NCBI RefSeq assembly: GCF_002934445.1
Contig: NZ_PTJE01000001.1
Location: forward strand, 744,001 to 808,000
Length of the DNA: 64,000 bases
DNA from: Nonlabens xylanidelens
GTDB taxonomy: Bacteria > Bacteroidota > Bacteroidia > Flavobacteriales > Flavobacteriaceae
Direction of reading: 5' to 3'
The notes beneath the pieces are model-generated. The model searched no databases and was not told the origin of the DNA. It saw only the letters and a list, made by a program, of their open reading frames with translations. Shown here in pieces: positions 31,572-63,884 of the stretch. A program made the translations under genes and the position numbers. The number at the start of each line of letters is the position of its first letter. Position 1 is the stretch's first letter.

Positions 31572-31599
31572 TTAATTTTTAGTCTAGCCTAAAAATTAA
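31572..31599. promoter_or_regulatory. Likely DtxR-family operator palindrome
   Basis: An almost perfect 28-bp palindrome: 11-bp arms TTAATTTTTAG and CTAAAAATTAA around a TCTAGC centre, one mismatched pair. The core TTAGnCTAGnCTAA resembles the DtxR/IdeR-type site. It lies 25 bases before the -7 box of a DtxR-family regulator, where it would overlap the -33 region, which suggests autoregulation. Confidence 0.65.
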
Positions 31600-31623
31600 T
31601 TTACCTAAATCAAATAAAAACTT

Positions 31624-31631
31624 TACCTTTG
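31624..31631 (+). promoter_or_regulatory. Promoter -7 box TACCTTTG for the metal-regulator operon
   Basis: A perfect TAnnTTTG four bases before the ATG at 31636, giving a nearly leaderless transcript. Confidence 0.65.
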
Positions 31632-31635
31632 CCGC

Positions 31636-32289
31636 ATGCATTCAATATCCGAAGAAAATTATATCAAAGCTATTTACCACCTACAAGATGGTAAAGCACT
31701 AGTGTCTACTAATGAAATTGCAGGGCGCATGAATACAAAAGCATCGTCTGTGACAGACATGCTTAAAAAGCTAGCAGATAAAAACCTAGCAGAATATGTC
31801 CCTTATAAAGGTGCGAAACTGACGGATAAAGGAGTACAATGTGCCAATCAAATTATTAGAAAACACAGACTGTGGGAAGTGTTTCTAGTAGAGAAACTAG
31901 ATTTTTCATGGGATGAGGTGCATGATGTGGCAGAGCAACTGGAGCATATTCAGTCACAAAAACTTATTGATCAACTCGATAAACATCTCGGCTTTCCTAA
32001 GAAGGATCCTCATGGTGACCCTATTCCAGATAGTCATGGTAATTATGAAAAAACTAACAAAACCATACTCTCTAAATTGAAAAAAGGAGATAAAGGTACC
32101 TTGATAGGTTTAATAGATTCATCAAAGAACTTTCTCAAGTACCTAGATAAACAACATATGAAGTTGGGAACTAACATAGAGATCATAGAATTTGAAGAAT
32201 TTGACCTATCCTATTCTATAAAAGTGAATGAGTCGCCTCTTCAAATTTCAAAACAAATTGCCGATAACCTTTATATAAAATTGAAATAA
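31636..32289 (+). CDS. DtxR/MntR-family metal-dependent repressor
   Basis: 217 residues. The N-terminal winged helix (about 1-65) has SEENYIKAIYHLQ, VSTNEIAGRMNTKASSVTDMLKKL and the wing YVPYKGAKLTDKG. The dimerisation/metal domain contains IIRKHRLWEVFLVEKLDFSWDEVHDVAEQLEHIQ (about 73-106), with His and Glu ligands. A FeoA/SH3-like domain ends the protein (about 145-217). It heads an apparent operon with a metal ABC importer, so Mn, Fe or Zn is the likely signal. The metal cannot be decided from sequence. Confidence 0.93.
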   Translation: MHSISEENYIKAIYHLQDGKALVSTNEIAGRMNTKASSVTDMLKKLADKNLAEYVPYKGAKLTDKGVQCANQIIRKHRLWEVFLVEKLDFSWDEVHDVAEQLEHIQSQKLIDQLDKHLGFPKKDPHGDPIPDSHGNYEKTNKTILSKLKKGDKGTLIGLIDSSKNFLKYLDKQHMKLGTNIEIIEFEEFDLSYSIKVNESPLQISKQIADNLYIKLK

Positions 32290-33077
32290 TGAAAAAAATA
32301 ATACTCGCACTAACTATACTTTTATCCTCGACGGTTGCCATCGCTCAGACTGATGATATAGGCGCACTGGTAACAGACAGGCCCGATGCAACAGAATCTC
32401 CTAACATAATAAGAAAAGGATTTTTACAAATAGAAACAGGTGGCTTTTACACAGAAAGTGGAGAAGATAGTTTTAAAACTAAAGAAACCGTTTATAATAC
32501 TACTTTATTGCGTTACGGACTTCTAGATAATTTAGAATTGAGATTGGGAATAGATTATCTAACTACAGAGTTTGAAGCTAATGGTGAACGAGTAGGAGAG
32601 CGACTCAATGGTACATCTCCATTATTGTTAGGAGCAAAAATAGCTATAGCCGAGGAAAATGGGTGGATGCCTAAAATAGCAATTCTAGGTCATTTGAGTC
32701 TTCCATTTAGCGCTGCATCAGATTATAAGCCAGAGAATACAGGTTTAGATTTTAGATTCTCATTTGACCACACACTTACAGATAAGTCTGGAATAGCTTA
32801 TAATCTAGGAGCAAAATTAGATGCTGGAAATCCAGAACTAGCTTATATCTATACACTGGCTTATGGTTATGATTTAAGTTCTAGGATAGGGGTTTATGCA
32901 GAGCTTTACGGTGATTTTCCTGAAGATACAAAGGCAAATCATAATTGGGACGCAGGATTTACCTACTTAGCAAATGATGACTTACAATTTGATTTAACCT
33001 TCGGTTCTGGAATTACAGATGGTCAAAACCTTTTATTAAGCGCTGGTTTAAGTTATAGAATTAGAAATAATAAATAG
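32289..33077 (+). CDS. Outer-membrane beta-barrel 'transporter' family protein
   Basis: 262 residues with a signal peptide (ALTILLSSTVAIAQ, cleavage about residue 20). The mature start TDRPDATESPNIIRKGFLQIETGGFY is the hallmark of a Bacteroidetes/Proteobacteria barrel family usually annotated as transporter (phenol MetA-like). Alternating beta strands run to the end, LLLSAGLSYRIRNNK. Its start overlaps the regulator stop (TAATG), so it is probably metal-controlled and could be the outer-membrane passage for the metal. Confidence 0.8.
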   Translation: MKKIILALTILLSSTVAIAQTDDIGALVTDRPDATESPNIIRKGFLQIETGGFYTESGEDSFKTKETVYNTTLLRYGLLDNLELRLGIDYLTTEFEANGERVGERLNGTSPLLLGAKIAIAEENGWMPKIAILGHLSLPFSAASDYKPENTGLDFRFSFDHTLTDKSGIAYNLGAKLDAGNPELAYIYTLAYGYDLSSRIGVYAELYGDFPEDTKANHNWDAGFTYLANDDLQFDLTFGSGITDGQNLLLSAGLSYRIRNNK

Positions 33078-33128: not shown

Positions 33129-34037
33129 ATGAAAAAAATACTATTCCTCTTAACAGTCTTATCGATAGTGAGCTGTGGAGAAAAAAAAGAAGATAACGGT
33201 AAGCTACAAGTTGTGACAACTACTACCATGATTACAGACCTAGTAGAAAACATAGGTGGTGATCTAGTTGATGTAAATGGTTTAATGGGTAGCGGGATAG
33301 ACCCTCATTTATACAAAGCAAGTCAAGGAGATGTGATGAAACTGGATGGTGCAGACGTTATTTTTTACAACGGTTTACATCTAGAAGGGAAACTGGTAGA
33401 GGTTTTTGAAAAAATGAATGAGCAAGGTAAAACTACTATCGCGATAAGTGATGGGGTGTCCGAGAAATCACTTATAGGTAGTGAGTATTTTGCAAGTAAT
33501 TACGATCCGCACATATGGTTTGATCTGACTTACTGGAATGAAATCACATACTACGTCACTGAAAAGCTTATTGAATTAGATCCTGAAAACAAACTAGCTT
33601 ATGAAGCAAATAGAGATGCTTACCGACTCCAATTAATTGATCTAAGAGCGGCTTTAAACGTGAAGATACAAGAACTTCCTAAGGAGCGCCGTATTCTAGT
33701 AACTGCTCATGATGCTTTTAATTATTTTGGTAGAACATTTGATTTTGAAGTGGTAGGTTTACAAGGTATTTCTACTGCTACAGAGGCTGGAGTTAAAGAT
33801 GTTCAACGCATAACAAATTTTATAATAGAAAATAAAATTAATGCGGTATTTATAGAAAGTAGTGTCCCTAGACGTACGGTAGAGGCATTACAAGCTGCGG
33901 TTAAAGCACAAAATCATGATGTAAAGATAGGTGGAGAGCTTTTTAGCGACGCATTAGGTAGTGCTGGAACGATAGAAGGTACATACATAGGTATGTATAA
34001 ACATAATGTGAGTACTATTGTAAACGCACTTAAATAA
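33129..34037 (+). CDS. Metal ABC transporter substrate-binding lipoprotein (TroA/ZnuA type)
   Basis: 302 residues. Lipobox LSIVSCGEK, Cys at 16. Metal ligands of cluster A-1 binding proteins are visible: DPHLYKAS (about 59-66), YDPHIWFD (about 124-131), [13 protein letters not shown] (about 193-205) and the late Asp/Glu region [15 protein letters not shown]. There is no long His-rich loop as in ZnuA, which slightly favours Mn/Fe over Zn. It binds the ion in the periplasm for the two permeases encoded downstream. The stop overlaps the ATPase start (TAATG). Confidence 0.93.
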
Positions 34038-34774
34038 TGGAACAGAAAATAGCAGTAGCGGTAGATGACCTTACGGTGGCTTATAACTATAAACCAGTTC
34101 TTTGGGATATAGATTTATCTATTCCAGAAGGTGTATTAATGGCGATAGTAGGTCCTAATGGTGCAGGAAAATCTACGTTGATAAAATCTATTTTAGGTAT
34201 TATAGACCCCATTGCAGGTTCTGTTGCTATTTATGGTAAACCTTATAAGAAACAACGTGATAAAGTGGCTTATGTGCCACAAAAGGGTAGTGTTGATTGG
34301 GATTTCCCTACGACAGCACTAGATGTGGTCATGATGGGTACTTATGGCGCTCTAGGCTGGATCAAAAGACCAGGTGCAAAGCAAAAAAAACAAGCGCTTG
34401 AAGCACTGGAAAAAGTAGGAATGCTTGCTTTTAAAGGAAGGCAAATATCTCAATTATCTGGTGGGCAGCAGCAACGTATATTTTTAGCACGTGCATTAGT
34501 TCAAAATGCAGCGATCTATTTTATGGACGAGCCTTTTCAAGGTGTTGATGCTACTACTGAAATAGCAATCATTAATATTTTAAAAGAACTGAGAAAAGCT
34601 GGTAAAACGGTAATAGTAGTGCACCATGATTTGCAGACAGTTCCTGAATACTTTGATTGGGTTACTTTTTTAAATGTAAAACATATCGCTACAGGTCCTG
34701 TAAAAGATATTTTTAATGATGATAACCTTACAAAGACTTATGGTATCAACTATAAAGTAGCTGTTCAAAAATAA
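34037..34774 (+). CDS. Metal ABC transporter ATP-binding protein
   Basis: 245 residues. Walker [10 protein letters not shown] (about 38-46), Q-loop VAYVPQKG, signature [15 protein letters not shown] (about 140-154), Walker B FMDEP and switch His VVHHD. The Q-loop context [11 protein letters not shown] is typical of Mn/Zn importers. It energises the two membrane subunits encoded next. Overlaps its neighbour by one base upstream; four bases separate it from the first permease gene. Confidence 0.95.
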
Positions 34775-34778
34775 CCAG

Positions 34779-35891
34779 ATGGAATTAACAGATTTCTTTA
34801 CAGATTATACGTTGCGTACCATAACACTAGGGACAGCTGTTCTAGGGGCTATTTGTGGTATGTTAGGTAGCTTTGCTGTGTTGAGAAAACAAAGCCTACT
34901 AGGTGATGCGATTTCTCATGCCGCGTTACCAGGTATTGCGCTAGCGTTTTTATTCACTGGATTAAAGGATTCTAATGTCCTTCTTTTAGGGGCTTTAATT
35001 AGTGGTTTTATAGGTACGGTGTGGATACGTGGAATAGTGACTAAAACACATCTTAAAACAGATACGGCTTTAGGTCTTATTTTGAGTTTGTTCTTTGGCT
35101 TTGGAGAATTGGTTTTAAGTTATTTAAAGAAACAACCAGATGCAAATCAGGCAGGATTAGATAAGTATTTATTTGGGCAGGCGGCTACACTTGTGCAAAG
35201 TGATGTAATAGTCATGATTATTGTAACAGGTATAAGTCTTGTGGTAATGTTGCTGTTCTGGAAAGAGTTTAAACTCTTGTTATTTGATAAGAATTATGCC
35301 ATGACTCTAGGTTTTAATACACGATTCATAGATGGATTGATCAGCTTTTTTATAGTGCTAGCTATAGTTATAGGTTTACAAACGGTAGGTGTTGTTTTAA
35401 TGAGTGCCATGTTGCTAGCTCCAGCAGCAGCGGCAAGACAGTGGACTAATAGTCTTGGGACGATGGTGATTCTAGCAGCTGTATTTGGTGCTTTTTCTGG
35501 TGTTTTTGGTACAGGAATAAGTGCTAGTTATAACAACCTATCTACTGGTCCAGTGATTGTTTTAGTTGCCGCAGTTTTTGTAGGAGTGTCATTTATTTTT
35601 TCTCCTAGTCGTGGTGTTTTATTTAAACAAATACGTTTGATAAGAAACCGTAGAGATCTAGAGTTGAAAAAGACTTTGTATTTCATGTATGGTATTGTAG
35701 AAAAACATGAAGATATTTCTAGACCTCACTCTATTAAAATTTTAAATGGTTTTCAAGGTTTTACAAGAGGTACCTTAAAAGCGCTGTCAGATAAGAGCTG
35801 GATAACCATAAAAGGACAAGACTGGTCACTAACAGAAGAAGGTTTTCAAACAGCAGAGAATTTGTATAACACTAATATGCCTGAATCATGA
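34779..35891 (+). CDS. Metal ABC transporter permease with C-terminal winged-helix-like tail
   Basis: 370 residues, about 90 longer than a typical ABC-3 permease. Eight or so membrane helices fill residues 12-280; family signatures are LLGDAISHAALPGIALAF (about 40-57) and MSAMLLAPAAAARQW (about 208-222). After the last helix, residues ~290-368 form a soluble region: LKKTLYFMYGIVEKHE, TRGTLKALSDKSWI, then WSLTEEGFQTAENLY. This resembles the DtxR winged helix (LTxxG...A). It overlaps the next permease gene by four bases. Confidence 0.92.
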   Translation: MELTDFFTDYTLRTITLGTAVLGAICGMLGSFAVLRKQSLLGDAISHAALPGIALAFLFTGLKDSNVLLLGALISGFIGTVWIRGIVTKTHLKTDTALGLILSLFFGFGELVLSYLKKQPDANQAGLDKYLFGQAATLVQSDVIVMIIVTGISLVVMLLFWKEFKLLLFDKNYAMTLGFNTRFIDGLISFFIVLAIVIGLQTVGVVLMSAMLLAPAAAARQWTNSLGTMVILAAVFGAFSGVFGTGISASYNNLSTGPVIVLVAAVFVGVSFIFSPSRGVLFKQIRLIRNRRDLELKKTLYFMYGIVEKHEDISRPHSIKILNGFQGFTRGTLKALSDKSWITIKGQDWSLTEEGFQTAENLYNTNMPES

Positions 35892-37045
35892 ATGCAGAAT
35901 TAGCTATTATCTTAATTGCTTGCCTTACTGCTGTAGCTTGTGCTATACCAGGTGTGTTTTTAGTTTTACGTAAAATGGCGTTAATTAGTGACGCGATAAG
36001 TCACTCTATTCTTCCAGGTATAGTAATCGGTTTTTTTATTACAGAAGACCTTGCTTCACCATGGTTGATATTGCTTGCCGCATTCAGTGGTATTATAACT
36101 GTTGTGCTGGTAGAAGCTATTCAAAAAACCGGTTTAGTAAAAGAAGATACAGCGATAGGATTAGTATTCCCAGCCTTATTTAGTATAGGGGTTTTATTAA
36201 TTGCTATTTATGCAAACGATATTCATCTAGATACCGATGCTGTATTAGTAGGTAGACTGGAGTATGCTGCCTTTGATAAGTTAATGATAGATCATGTAAG
36301 CTATGGTCCCAAGAGTATGTGGACCATTTCTATAACTCTAGTAATAACGTTAGCTCTATTATTTGCTTTTTATAAAGAATTGAAATTAAGCACGTTTGAT
36401 ATAGGGTTGTCATCTGCTTTAGGTTTTTCTCCTGTTATATTACATTATGGTTTAATGAGTGTTGCATCAGTAACTACAGTGGTTTCTTTTGATGCAGTAG
36501 GAGCTATTCTTGTGGTCGCATTAATGATCGCACCAGCCGCTGCCGCTTATTTACTTACTACAGATTTAAAAAAGATGATCGTCTTGTCCATTCTTTTTGG
36601 AATCATGAGTGCTATAGGCGGTTATTATTTTGCAGTATGGTTAGATGCTTCTATTAGTGGTTCTATTACAACAGTCTTGGGATTAATCTTTTTACTGGTC
36701 TATCTTTTTGCACCGACTAAAGGCTTGATAGCAGTTCTGTTTCGACAGAAAAGGCAGCGTACAGAAGTTTCTTTATTGACATTCTTACTTCATCTGAATA
36801 ATCATGATAGTATAGAAGAAAGAAGAGTTGCCCACTTACAAGAACATATCAATTGGGGTAAAGTACGTGCCAAAACTGTTCTTGAATTAGCACAAAAAAA
36901 CAACATGATTACCATGCAAGATGAGGTGGTTTCTCTCACTAATAAAGGTCTTAAGTTTACCGAGAAAGCACTGGACTATATCATCACTAATAAAGATGAA
37001 CAAATCGAAGACATGAAGGATGATTTCTTCTTGTTTAGAGGATAG
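35888..37045 (+). CDS. Second metal ABC transporter permease with winged-helix-like tail
   Basis: 385 residues. It has the ABC-3 membrane domain with ALISDAISHSILPGIVIGFF (about 31-50) and ILVVALMIAPAAAAYLL (about 207-223). A soluble C-terminus (about 295-385) again looks like a winged helix: LLTFLLHLNNHDSIEE, RAKTVLELAQKNNMI, VVSLTNKGLKFTEKAL. The two permeases probably form a heterodimer. The gene is followed by a strong bidirectional terminator, which closes the regulator-barrel-ABC operon. Confidence 0.92.
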   Translation: MNAELAIILIACLTAVACAIPGVFLVLRKMALISDAISHSILPGIVIGFFITEDLASPWLILLAAFSGIITVVLVEAIQKTGLVKEDTAIGLVFPALFSIGVLLIAIYANDIHLDTDAVLVGRLEYAAFDKLMIDHVSYGPKSMWTISITLVITLALLFAFYKELKLSTFDIGLSSALGFSPVILHYGLMSVASVTTVVSFDAVGAILVVALMIAPAAAAYLLTTDLKKMIVLSILFGIMSAIGGYYFAVWLDASISGSITTVLGLIFLLVYLFAPTKGLIAVLFRQKRQRTEVSLLTFLLHLNNHDSIEERRVAHLQEHINWGKVRAKTVLELAQKNNMITMQDEVVSLTNKGLKFTEKALDYIITNKDEQIEDMKDDFFLFRG

Positions 37046-37067: not shown

Positions 37068-37099
37068 AAAAAAGGGCAGAATTAATTCTGCCCTTTTTT
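37068..37099. terminator. Bidirectional terminator after the metal ABC operon
   Basis: A perfect 16-bp-arm palindrome with core GGGCAGAATTAATTCTGCCC at 37074-37093 and A/T tracts at both ends. The same 20-base core recurs at 37432-37451. Confidence 0.9.
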
Positions 37100-37421: not shown

Positions 37422-37461
37422 ATACCACAAAGGGCAGAATTAATTCTGCCCTTTGTGGTAT
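37422..37461 (-). terminator. Terminator after the crotonase gene, same core as 37068-37099
   Basis: A 20-bp-arm perfect palindrome including GGGCAGAATTAATTCTGCCC at 37432-37451, 19 bases past the crotonase stop. Confidence 0.85.
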
Positions 37462-63353: not shown

Positions 63354-63884
63354 ATGAAAAAAGTCATTTTTGCACTAGTTTTACTAGTAACTTTAAGCTC
63401 TTGCCAGCAAAAAGAAACTGCACAAACGTTTATTGGAGAAGAATTGAAAACTATGGAAGATAGAAAAGCATTTCTTCAAGAGGTGTTTGAATCTGACCAA
63501 CAAGTAAGAGAAGGTTTATCTGAAACTGAATTAAGTGAAAAAGCCTACTACGATAGAATGGATGAAGCAGATGACGTTAATTTGTCTAAAATCAAATGGT
63601 ATCTAGATAACTATGATTATCCTAGTAAAAAGGTGTTCAATGAATCTCAATCTATGATTCCTGCCTTAGTGGTTCATCATTCTTTTGAGCCTAATATTAG
63701 AAGAAAAATGTACCCTAAATTCAAGACGGCTTATGATGAAAAAAATCTGGATCCAGATTTTTTTGCTCTTTACCTAGGAAGACTTTTCGAAATTGAAAAC
63801 GATACATATTTTAGAATGCAAAGTCCTTATAGTATTGAAGATCAAATATCGACTCTTATCGATACTTTACAATTAAAAAAATAA
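63354..63884 (+). CDS. Lipoprotein of unknown function
   Basis: 176 residues. Lipobox VTLSSCQQK, Cys at about 17. The mature part is helical and rich in Glu, Asp, Lys and Tyr, with a core SQSMIPALVVHHSFEPNIRRKMYPKFKTAYDEKNL (about 98-132). The HH pair could bind metal. No family recognised. It stands alone after the hflX terminator. Confidence 0.7.
   Translation: MKKVIFALVLLVTLSSCQQKETAQTFIGEELKTMEDRKAFLQEVFESDQQVREGLSETELSEKAYYDRMDEADDVNLSKIKWYLDNYDYPSKKVFNESQSMIPALVVHHSFEPNIRRKMYPKFKTAYDEKNLDPDFFALYLGRLFEIENDTYFRMQSPYSIEDQISTLIDTLQLKK

Follow-up and report, generated by a model that had tools for sequence, protein, structure and literature searches.

In the window, i.e. the whole 64-kb stretch of Nonlabens xylanidelens DNA that was analysed (G+C content 35%; genome size 3.28 Mb), a 28-bp palindrome precedes an operon for a metalloregulator, an outer-membrane β-barrel and an ABC importer. 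The features of the locus are as follows:

31572..31599, no strand assigned: predicted operator palindrome, 28 bp, with the conserved core TTAG-N6-CTAA at 31579-31592
31600..31606, + strand: presumed −33 region; position deduced from the spacing, including that in relatives; a perfect TTTG is absent
31624..31631, + strand: −7 box TACCTTTG, TAnnTTTG type, 4 nt before the ATG
31636..32289, + strand: DtxR/MntR-type metalloregulator, 217 aa, with helix-turn-helix (HTH), metal/dimerisation and FeoA/SH3-like domains; recognition helix at about residues 34-44, including Ser38
32289..33077, + strand: outer-membrane β-barrel (PF13557), predicted to have 12 strands and similar to FapF and COG4313 channels; candidate metal pore
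33129..34037, + strand: ZnuA/MntC-type substrate-binding protein (profile matches)
34037..34774, + strand: ABC ATPase of the Mn/Zn importer type (profile matches)
34779..35891, + strand: ABC-3 permease 1, with a conserved C-terminal winged-helix-like tail (residues ~272-370)
35888..37045, + strand: ABC-3 permease 2, with a C-terminal tail related to that of permease 1
37070..37097, no strand assigned: likely operon terminator, a GGGCAGAATTAATTCTGCCC stem followed by a T run

The operon genes overlap or are separated by gaps of at most 51 bp. The layout is that of an autoregulated importer: the predicted operator precedes the regulator, the importer genes are contiguous and on the same strand, and the terminator comes last. 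The regulator scores above the curated cut-offs for PF01325 (Fe_dep_repress HTH; 65.6 bits, cut-off 26), and PF02742 (Fe_dep_repr_C; 108.6 bits, cut-off 27), and it also has a FeoA domain. The preliminary description had placed a full metal ABC importer behind the regulator, and the ORF list and Pfam confirm these genes. The genome encodes one PF01325 protein, one ZnuA-type protein and, elsewhere, one ZIP protein; a genome-wide search for NRAMP found none.

The structural model of the barrel has 12 strands (pLDDT 75), and its best matches are FapF and a COG4313 channel. Its natural reading is that the protein probably forms the pore for the imported metal. Among 24 relatives that carry the importer, the outer-membrane slot of the operon holds a PF13557-type barrel in 16. 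A TonB-dependent receptor lies between the regulator and the binding protein in two (L096, L103) and directly before the binding protein in another two (L071, L077), while four have neither barrel nor receptor there. The slot is thus filled by the barrel or by what appear to be two kinds of TonB-dependent receptor, which suggests that the route of metal entry through the outer membrane is interchangeable in this operon.

Both permeases end in tails of about 100 aa (encoded at 35592-35888 and ~36710-37042) that are conserved and similar to each other; the first is predicted to be winged-helix-like. These tails may be a cytoplasmic sensing or DNA-binding addition. A YtgCR-like fusion, with DtxR-like tails on the permeases, was considered and rejected: profile comparison gave no match to regulators, and the AlphaFold model resembles winged helices weakly (best E 0.012).

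The arms of the palindrome, TTAATTTTTAGTCT at 31572-31585 and AGCCTAAAAATTAA at 31586-31599, adjoin without a spacer and are complementary in 13 of 14 pairs (93%), so that the near-perfect palindrome noted in the preliminary description is real. The core reads TTAGTCTAGCCTAA. The palindrome is separated by 24 bp from the −7 box and by 36 bp from the ATG of the DtxR-family gene, both of which lie downstream. It had been described both as upstream of these two elements, which is the case, and as overlapping the promoter, which needs amending: it stops short of the −7 box and abuts the expected −33 region. TAnnTTTG is the consensus of the Bacteroidota-type promoter box, and the −33 consensus is likewise of this type; boxes of the TAnnTTTG type are present in the window. 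With just 4 nt between the −7 box and the ATG, transcripts of the regulator gene may have little or no leader and would start near 31636.

Even dyads of 28 bp with at least 13 of 14 complementary pairs are rare by chance; 60 first-order Markov simulations put the expectation at 0.017 per 64 kb. The window contains seven, including the predicted operator. Judged by eye, stems that contain G+C are present in five of the remaining six, and four of these five are followed by T-rich DNA, as in terminators. The last one, at 63738-63765, is a near-perfect palindrome, GAAAAAAATCTGGATCCAGATTTTTTTG, and is perhaps a weak terminator. The stem GGGCAGAATTAATTCTGCCC is common to the palindromes at 37070-37097 and 37428-37455.

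These comparisons bear on the idea that the palindrome upstream of the regulator terminates the preceding nadD-like gene, the stop codon of which is 32 bp away. Its palindromic nature and this short distance would fit a terminator. Its stem, however, consists mostly of A/T and has no T run behind it, unlike the terminator-like palindromes of the window with their G+C-containing stems and T-rich downstream DNA, and the motif is kept in relatives in which the upstream gene is different or divergent. A terminator is therefore a most improbable reading.

Conservation and position of the core and of a sister motif

The family sample comprises 60 genomes, including that of the window, and 55 of them have a homologue. 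Of 67 listed loci, 58 (from 53 genomes) were fetched; those left out are the window itself, seven tandem second matches (ORFs of 339-348 aa) and a single truncated match. The regulators were divided into A-type and B-type, first by identity (at least 40% versus 33-39%) and later by motif.

Of the 45 A-type regulators (40-93% identity), 41 have TTAG-N6-CTAA in the 200 bp upstream, against a background of 0.0025 per 200 bp in the rest of the same loci. It was not found in this interval upstream of L057, L074, L076 and L089. The outer arms of the 28-bp palindrome are poorly conserved as a dyad among relatives; the conserved part is approximately ATTTTTAG-N6-CTAAAAAT, or in full ATTTTTAG-RYWWRN-CTAAAAAT as the A-type consensus. 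Three A-type proteins with 40-47% identity (L087, L088, L090) are preceded by a GTTAG...CTAAC variant.

The genes next to the 45 A-type regulators vary: 18 regulators have a ZIP-type neighbour, 11 the ABC operon, seven a membrane DtxR-like/FeoA protein, and one NRAMP. Six of the seven DtxR-like/FeoA loci also have two FeoB pieces according to BLAST clustering; Pfam was used to check the NRAMP protein and a single member of each of the ZIP, FeoA and FeoB clusters. TTAG-N6-CTAA occurs in all four of these settings, next to the ABC operon, ZIP carriers, a FeoB pair and NRAMP alike.

At the seven loci L047, L052, L063, L067, L072, L078 and L079, the regulator is followed by an apparently membrane-anchored protein of 338-341 aa that combines a DtxR metal/dimerisation domain with FeoA. 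At L047, the one checked with Pfam, this protein is in turn followed by FeoB split over two ORFs.

All 13 B-type regulators (33-39% identity) are encoded beside the same importer, and none has TTAG-N6-CTAA. Instead, a sister motif with the same 14-bp frame, TTAAG-N4-CTTAA, precedes 13/13 B-type and 0/45 A-type genes. In a de novo dyad search, in which the pattern was not yet fixed, the TTAAG palindrome ranked within the top three in 11 of the 13. The expectation that relatives with the same operon retain the palindrome thus holds for all 11 importers beside an A-type regulator, and fails for the 13 beside a B-type regulator, where the sister motif stands in its place.

In the window, the centre of the dyad lies 50 bp before the ATG. 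In 32 of 42 A-type promoters (window included), the distance between a strict TAnnTTTG box and the dyad centre is 29-39 bp, compared with 2% in shuffles; it is 16 bp in four, and in six the box is elsewhere or absent. Because most A-type sites are therefore upstream of the −33 region, the regulator might bind and activate, or both repress and activate; the distances in the window and in the 32 promoters would suit such a role. We consider it unlikely. The four A-type sites only 16 bp before the −7 box and the 13 B-type sites, all of which begin 16 or 17 bp downstream of the first base of the −7 box, occupy positions typical of repression, and many A-type right arms extend into the expected −33 slot. 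Moreover, metal-loaded DtxR-family proteins normally repress importer genes. Repression remains the preferred reading.

A genome-wide regulon was also considered, and rejected. The core with up to two mismatches occurs at 99 sites in the genome, compared with 134 for the reversed control. Among the matches listed, two sites have one mismatch; one lies about 25 bp behind an ORF stop, the other within an ABC-F gene. A stricter, flanked pattern gave 6 sites genome-wide versus 3 in the control, and inspection by eye of 3 kb around each revealed no recognisable metal gene except at the window's own site. One of the six, L109, is a perfect palindrome, TATTTAGTTTAAACTAAATA, that precedes genes which by eye encode a BlaI-like regulator and a membrane peptidase-like protein. 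In the motif scan advocated in the preliminary description, the core thus shows no excess over the reversed control; a single site in the genome is claimed here, not a regulon.

Half-site spelling and residue 38 across Bacteroidota

A search of the phylum gave a match in 99 of 148 genomes. Of 110 listed loci, 100 were fetched; two already included, one tandem second match and seven of the weakest were left out. The families of the exceptions L177 and L194 were searched as well, and the best 30 loci from each search were included. The resulting 219 regulators were reduced to 207 by dropping identical proteins. With 200 bp upstream, these have 114 A-type, 38 B-type and 7 hybrid sites, and 48 have neither; a hybrid site combines one TTAGG half with one TTAAG half. 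The totals depend slightly on the upstream length (with 250 bp, 159 regulators gave 89 A, 26 B and 44 neither). Matches in mononucleotide-shuffled upstream regions amount to 1.0% for TTAG and 0.17% for TTAAG.

The spelling covaries with one residue of the recognition helix. Among the 156 regulators with Ser or Thr at position 38, 113 have TTAG, none TTAAG, none a hybrid, and 43 no site within 200 bp upstream. Among the 51 with Ala38, 38 have TTAAG, 7 a hybrid, 1 TTAG, and 5 no site in the same interval. Ranked by mutual information with the spelling, position 38 comes first among the 217. With TTA..TAA as the only requirement, 214 of 238 Ser/Thr38 half-sites have G at position 4 (119 of the 156 regulators have such a site), and the two variable bases of 96 Ala38 half-sites (48 of 51 regulators) are AG in 85, GG in 9 and AA in 2.

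Leaving aside the seven hybrids, 151 of 152 pure sites have the spelling that goes with residue 38 of the regulator next to them. This speaks against the idea that the palindrome serves another transcription factor and is next to the regulator by accident, as does the presence of the motif before the regulator gene in four different neighbourhoods. We regard such a factor as very unlikely. The regulator encoded right behind the palindrome is the far better candidate.

Regulators without either motif count against the proposed reading. TTAG and TTAAG are both absent from 39 of the 100 loci of the phylum sample, and in one family (f21), 17 of 18 regulators have no site, though they carry Ser38 like the readers of TTAG.

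On the tree, three changes of spelling suffice; two are concordant with residue 38, and one, at L194, occurs without a residue change (Ala38, yet a site reading TTAGGTATACCTAA). With so few independent switches, a sign test on independent pairs is not significant. The clearest co-switch of residue and spelling, an independent one, is in one genus, represented by two species (L240, L241). Both have Ala38; the TTAAG site is exact in one and off by one base in the other. The other 28 of the best 30 loci of their family all have Ser38, with TTAG within 250 bp in 27 and a site cut by a contig edge in one.

Positions 36 and 43 also separate the spelling classes well. When positions were checked as alternative causes, the data spoke against 35, 37, 39 and 43, as regulators with Ser35, Ala37, Ala39 or Ala43 together with Ser/Thr38 are found only beside TTAG sites or without a site. 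Asn36 accompanies Ser/Thr38 in only three regulators, all site-less, so that position 36 stays an alternative cause. The covariation suggests that residue 38 tracks which spelling a regulator reads; it may be the cause rather than only a marker.

A branch with 100/100 support separates the A from the B regulators, in a tree with long branches. In the importer tree, A and B are intermixed, with at least three changes forced by supported branches and five by parsimony. The importer ATPases are 81-91% identical outside the genus; with this conservation and the intermixing, the importer has swapped its regulator repeatedly, together with the operator. The trees hence suggest one conserved importer operon passed more than once between two regulator/operator pairs. 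Taken together, we lean, if only slightly, towards a one-residue recognition switch in this family (Ser/Thr reading TTAG, Ala reading TTAAG, in the same 14-bp frame) combined with an importer handed between both pairs. Bacillus subtilis MntR has Ser at the 38-equivalent but different sites, so the rule may fail outside the TTAG/TTAAG frame.

Mode of action, metal and relation to known systems

The palindrome is very probably the operator of the regulator encoded right behind it, for metal-dependent repression of the whole operon; the autoregulatory DtxR-family operator predicted in the preliminary description is supported by the motif, by the order of the genes and by the covariation with the recognition helix. 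With enough metal in the cytoplasm (most likely Mn2+), a regulator dimer would sit on TTAG-N6-CTAA, with one recognition helix per half-site. Placed against the −33 region, it would block RNA polymerase and turn off regulator, barrel and ABC importer together. When metal drops, the dimer would leave, and the importer would be produced.

Mn2+ is, with moderate confidence, the most likely signal. Glu100, Glu103, His104 and His77 are found in 42/42 A-type rows (window included); the MntR-type ligands E99/E102/H103/H77 thus replace Cys102, which the literature as quoted gives as the ligand of iron-type DtxR. The second metal site has Glu81, Asp124 and His126 in every one of the 42 rows, and its fourth residue, Asp161, in 34. 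Sensing of Fe2+ or Zn2+ is a possible, more doubtful reading. It would fit the replacement of the Asp8-type Mn ligand by Asn in 36 of 42 A-type rows (including the window, with Asn8 where MntR has Asp8; six have Asp) and in 13/13 B-type regulators. ZIP and FeoB neighbours in relatives point the same way, as does the solute-binding protein, which scores best with the zinc model AztC, under its cut-off. The NCBIfam MntR equivalog NF047407 gives the regulator 146.7 bits, below the cut-off of 350. Against iron or zinc stand the conserved ligands in place of Cys102, the single NRAMP neighbour, the resemblance of the FeoB neighbours to the Mn transporter FB2 (PMC4805248), and the closest solved structures by sequence, namely 5zr4 (top match), SloR and ScaR.

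The entry 5zr4, which we take to be DR2539 of Deinococcus radiodurans, shares a DPHGDPIP stretch with the window regulator. DR2539 is a dual Mn/Fe repressor that requires an inverted repeat, and controls mntH, unlike the window's ABC importer (PMC3327659). Porphyromonas gingivalis belongs to the same phylum as the window organism. Its DtxR-family regulator PgMntR is encoded with a transporter (FB2), as in the window, responds to Mn and binds the promoter region of its own operon, but has two FeoA domains and Cys108 (PMC4805248). TroR of Treponema denticola is likewise a DtxR-type repressor with an ABC importer operon (tro) and an 18-bp dyad; the five genes listed in the cited text (troABCDR) include no outer-membrane gene (PMC2628430).

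The site itself has two TTAG/CTAA half-sites in a 14-bp frame, as in operators of the DtxR/IdeR type. The preliminary judgement that the core is close to these sites is well founded: it fits 9 of the 10 specified bases of the one-dimer 14-bp IdeR/DtxR consensus TTAGGNNNNCCTAA given in the cited text, the left fifth base being T, not G (PMC8464063). IdeR and DtxR use two overlapping registers (19 bp, two dimers), whereas the window has a single 14-bp register. By comparison with the consensus in that text, position 5 of the window-type half-site is free (mostly A or G), and the A/T flanks are strong.

The two phmmer ranges (6-132 versus 8-134) differ by the same offset at start and end, which places window residue 38 on IdeR Thr40. 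In IdeR-DNA structures, Thr40 contacts the second C of CCTAA (PMC8464063), i.e. the base pair that differs between TTAG and TTAA. According to the same text, IdeR tolerates C1 or C2 alone changed to T, not both together, and, with Thr40 kept, binds the C2-to-T probe with only mild loss. This tolerance counts against a simple residue-38 switch, and PMC8464063 argues for indirect readout. Of the 96 Ala38 half-sites, scored with no requirement for this base, 94 retain the C1 equivalent. The SloR element of Streptococcus mutans mntH resembles the B-type: SloR has Ala at the 38-equivalent by alignment, and it gel-shifts TTTTAAGCATACTTAACA, a TTAAG-N4-CTTAA site, and not a probe with an altered spacer that lost the G and C next to TTAA (PMC12096823). 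Binding is described there as metal-dependent, at a site that overlaps with the −35 region, and as cooperative at more than one site; in the window there is a single site, spelled the other way.

The operator is most likely of an ordinary, known kind, that of the DtxR family; the rule linking residue and spelling, and the exchange of regulators, are less expected. Among the open-access literature matches listed, none defines an operator for DtxR/MntR-type regulators of Bacteroidota. The present analysis supplies candidate operator sequences for them, and indicates an outer-membrane barrel as the probable metal pore. It also offers a natural test of DNA choice by DtxR-family proteins, because direct versus indirect readout, as discussed in PMC8464063, could be addressed by one substitution. 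If the proposed relations are true, the control of metal uptake in a major marine and gut phylum would be partly predictable from sequence.
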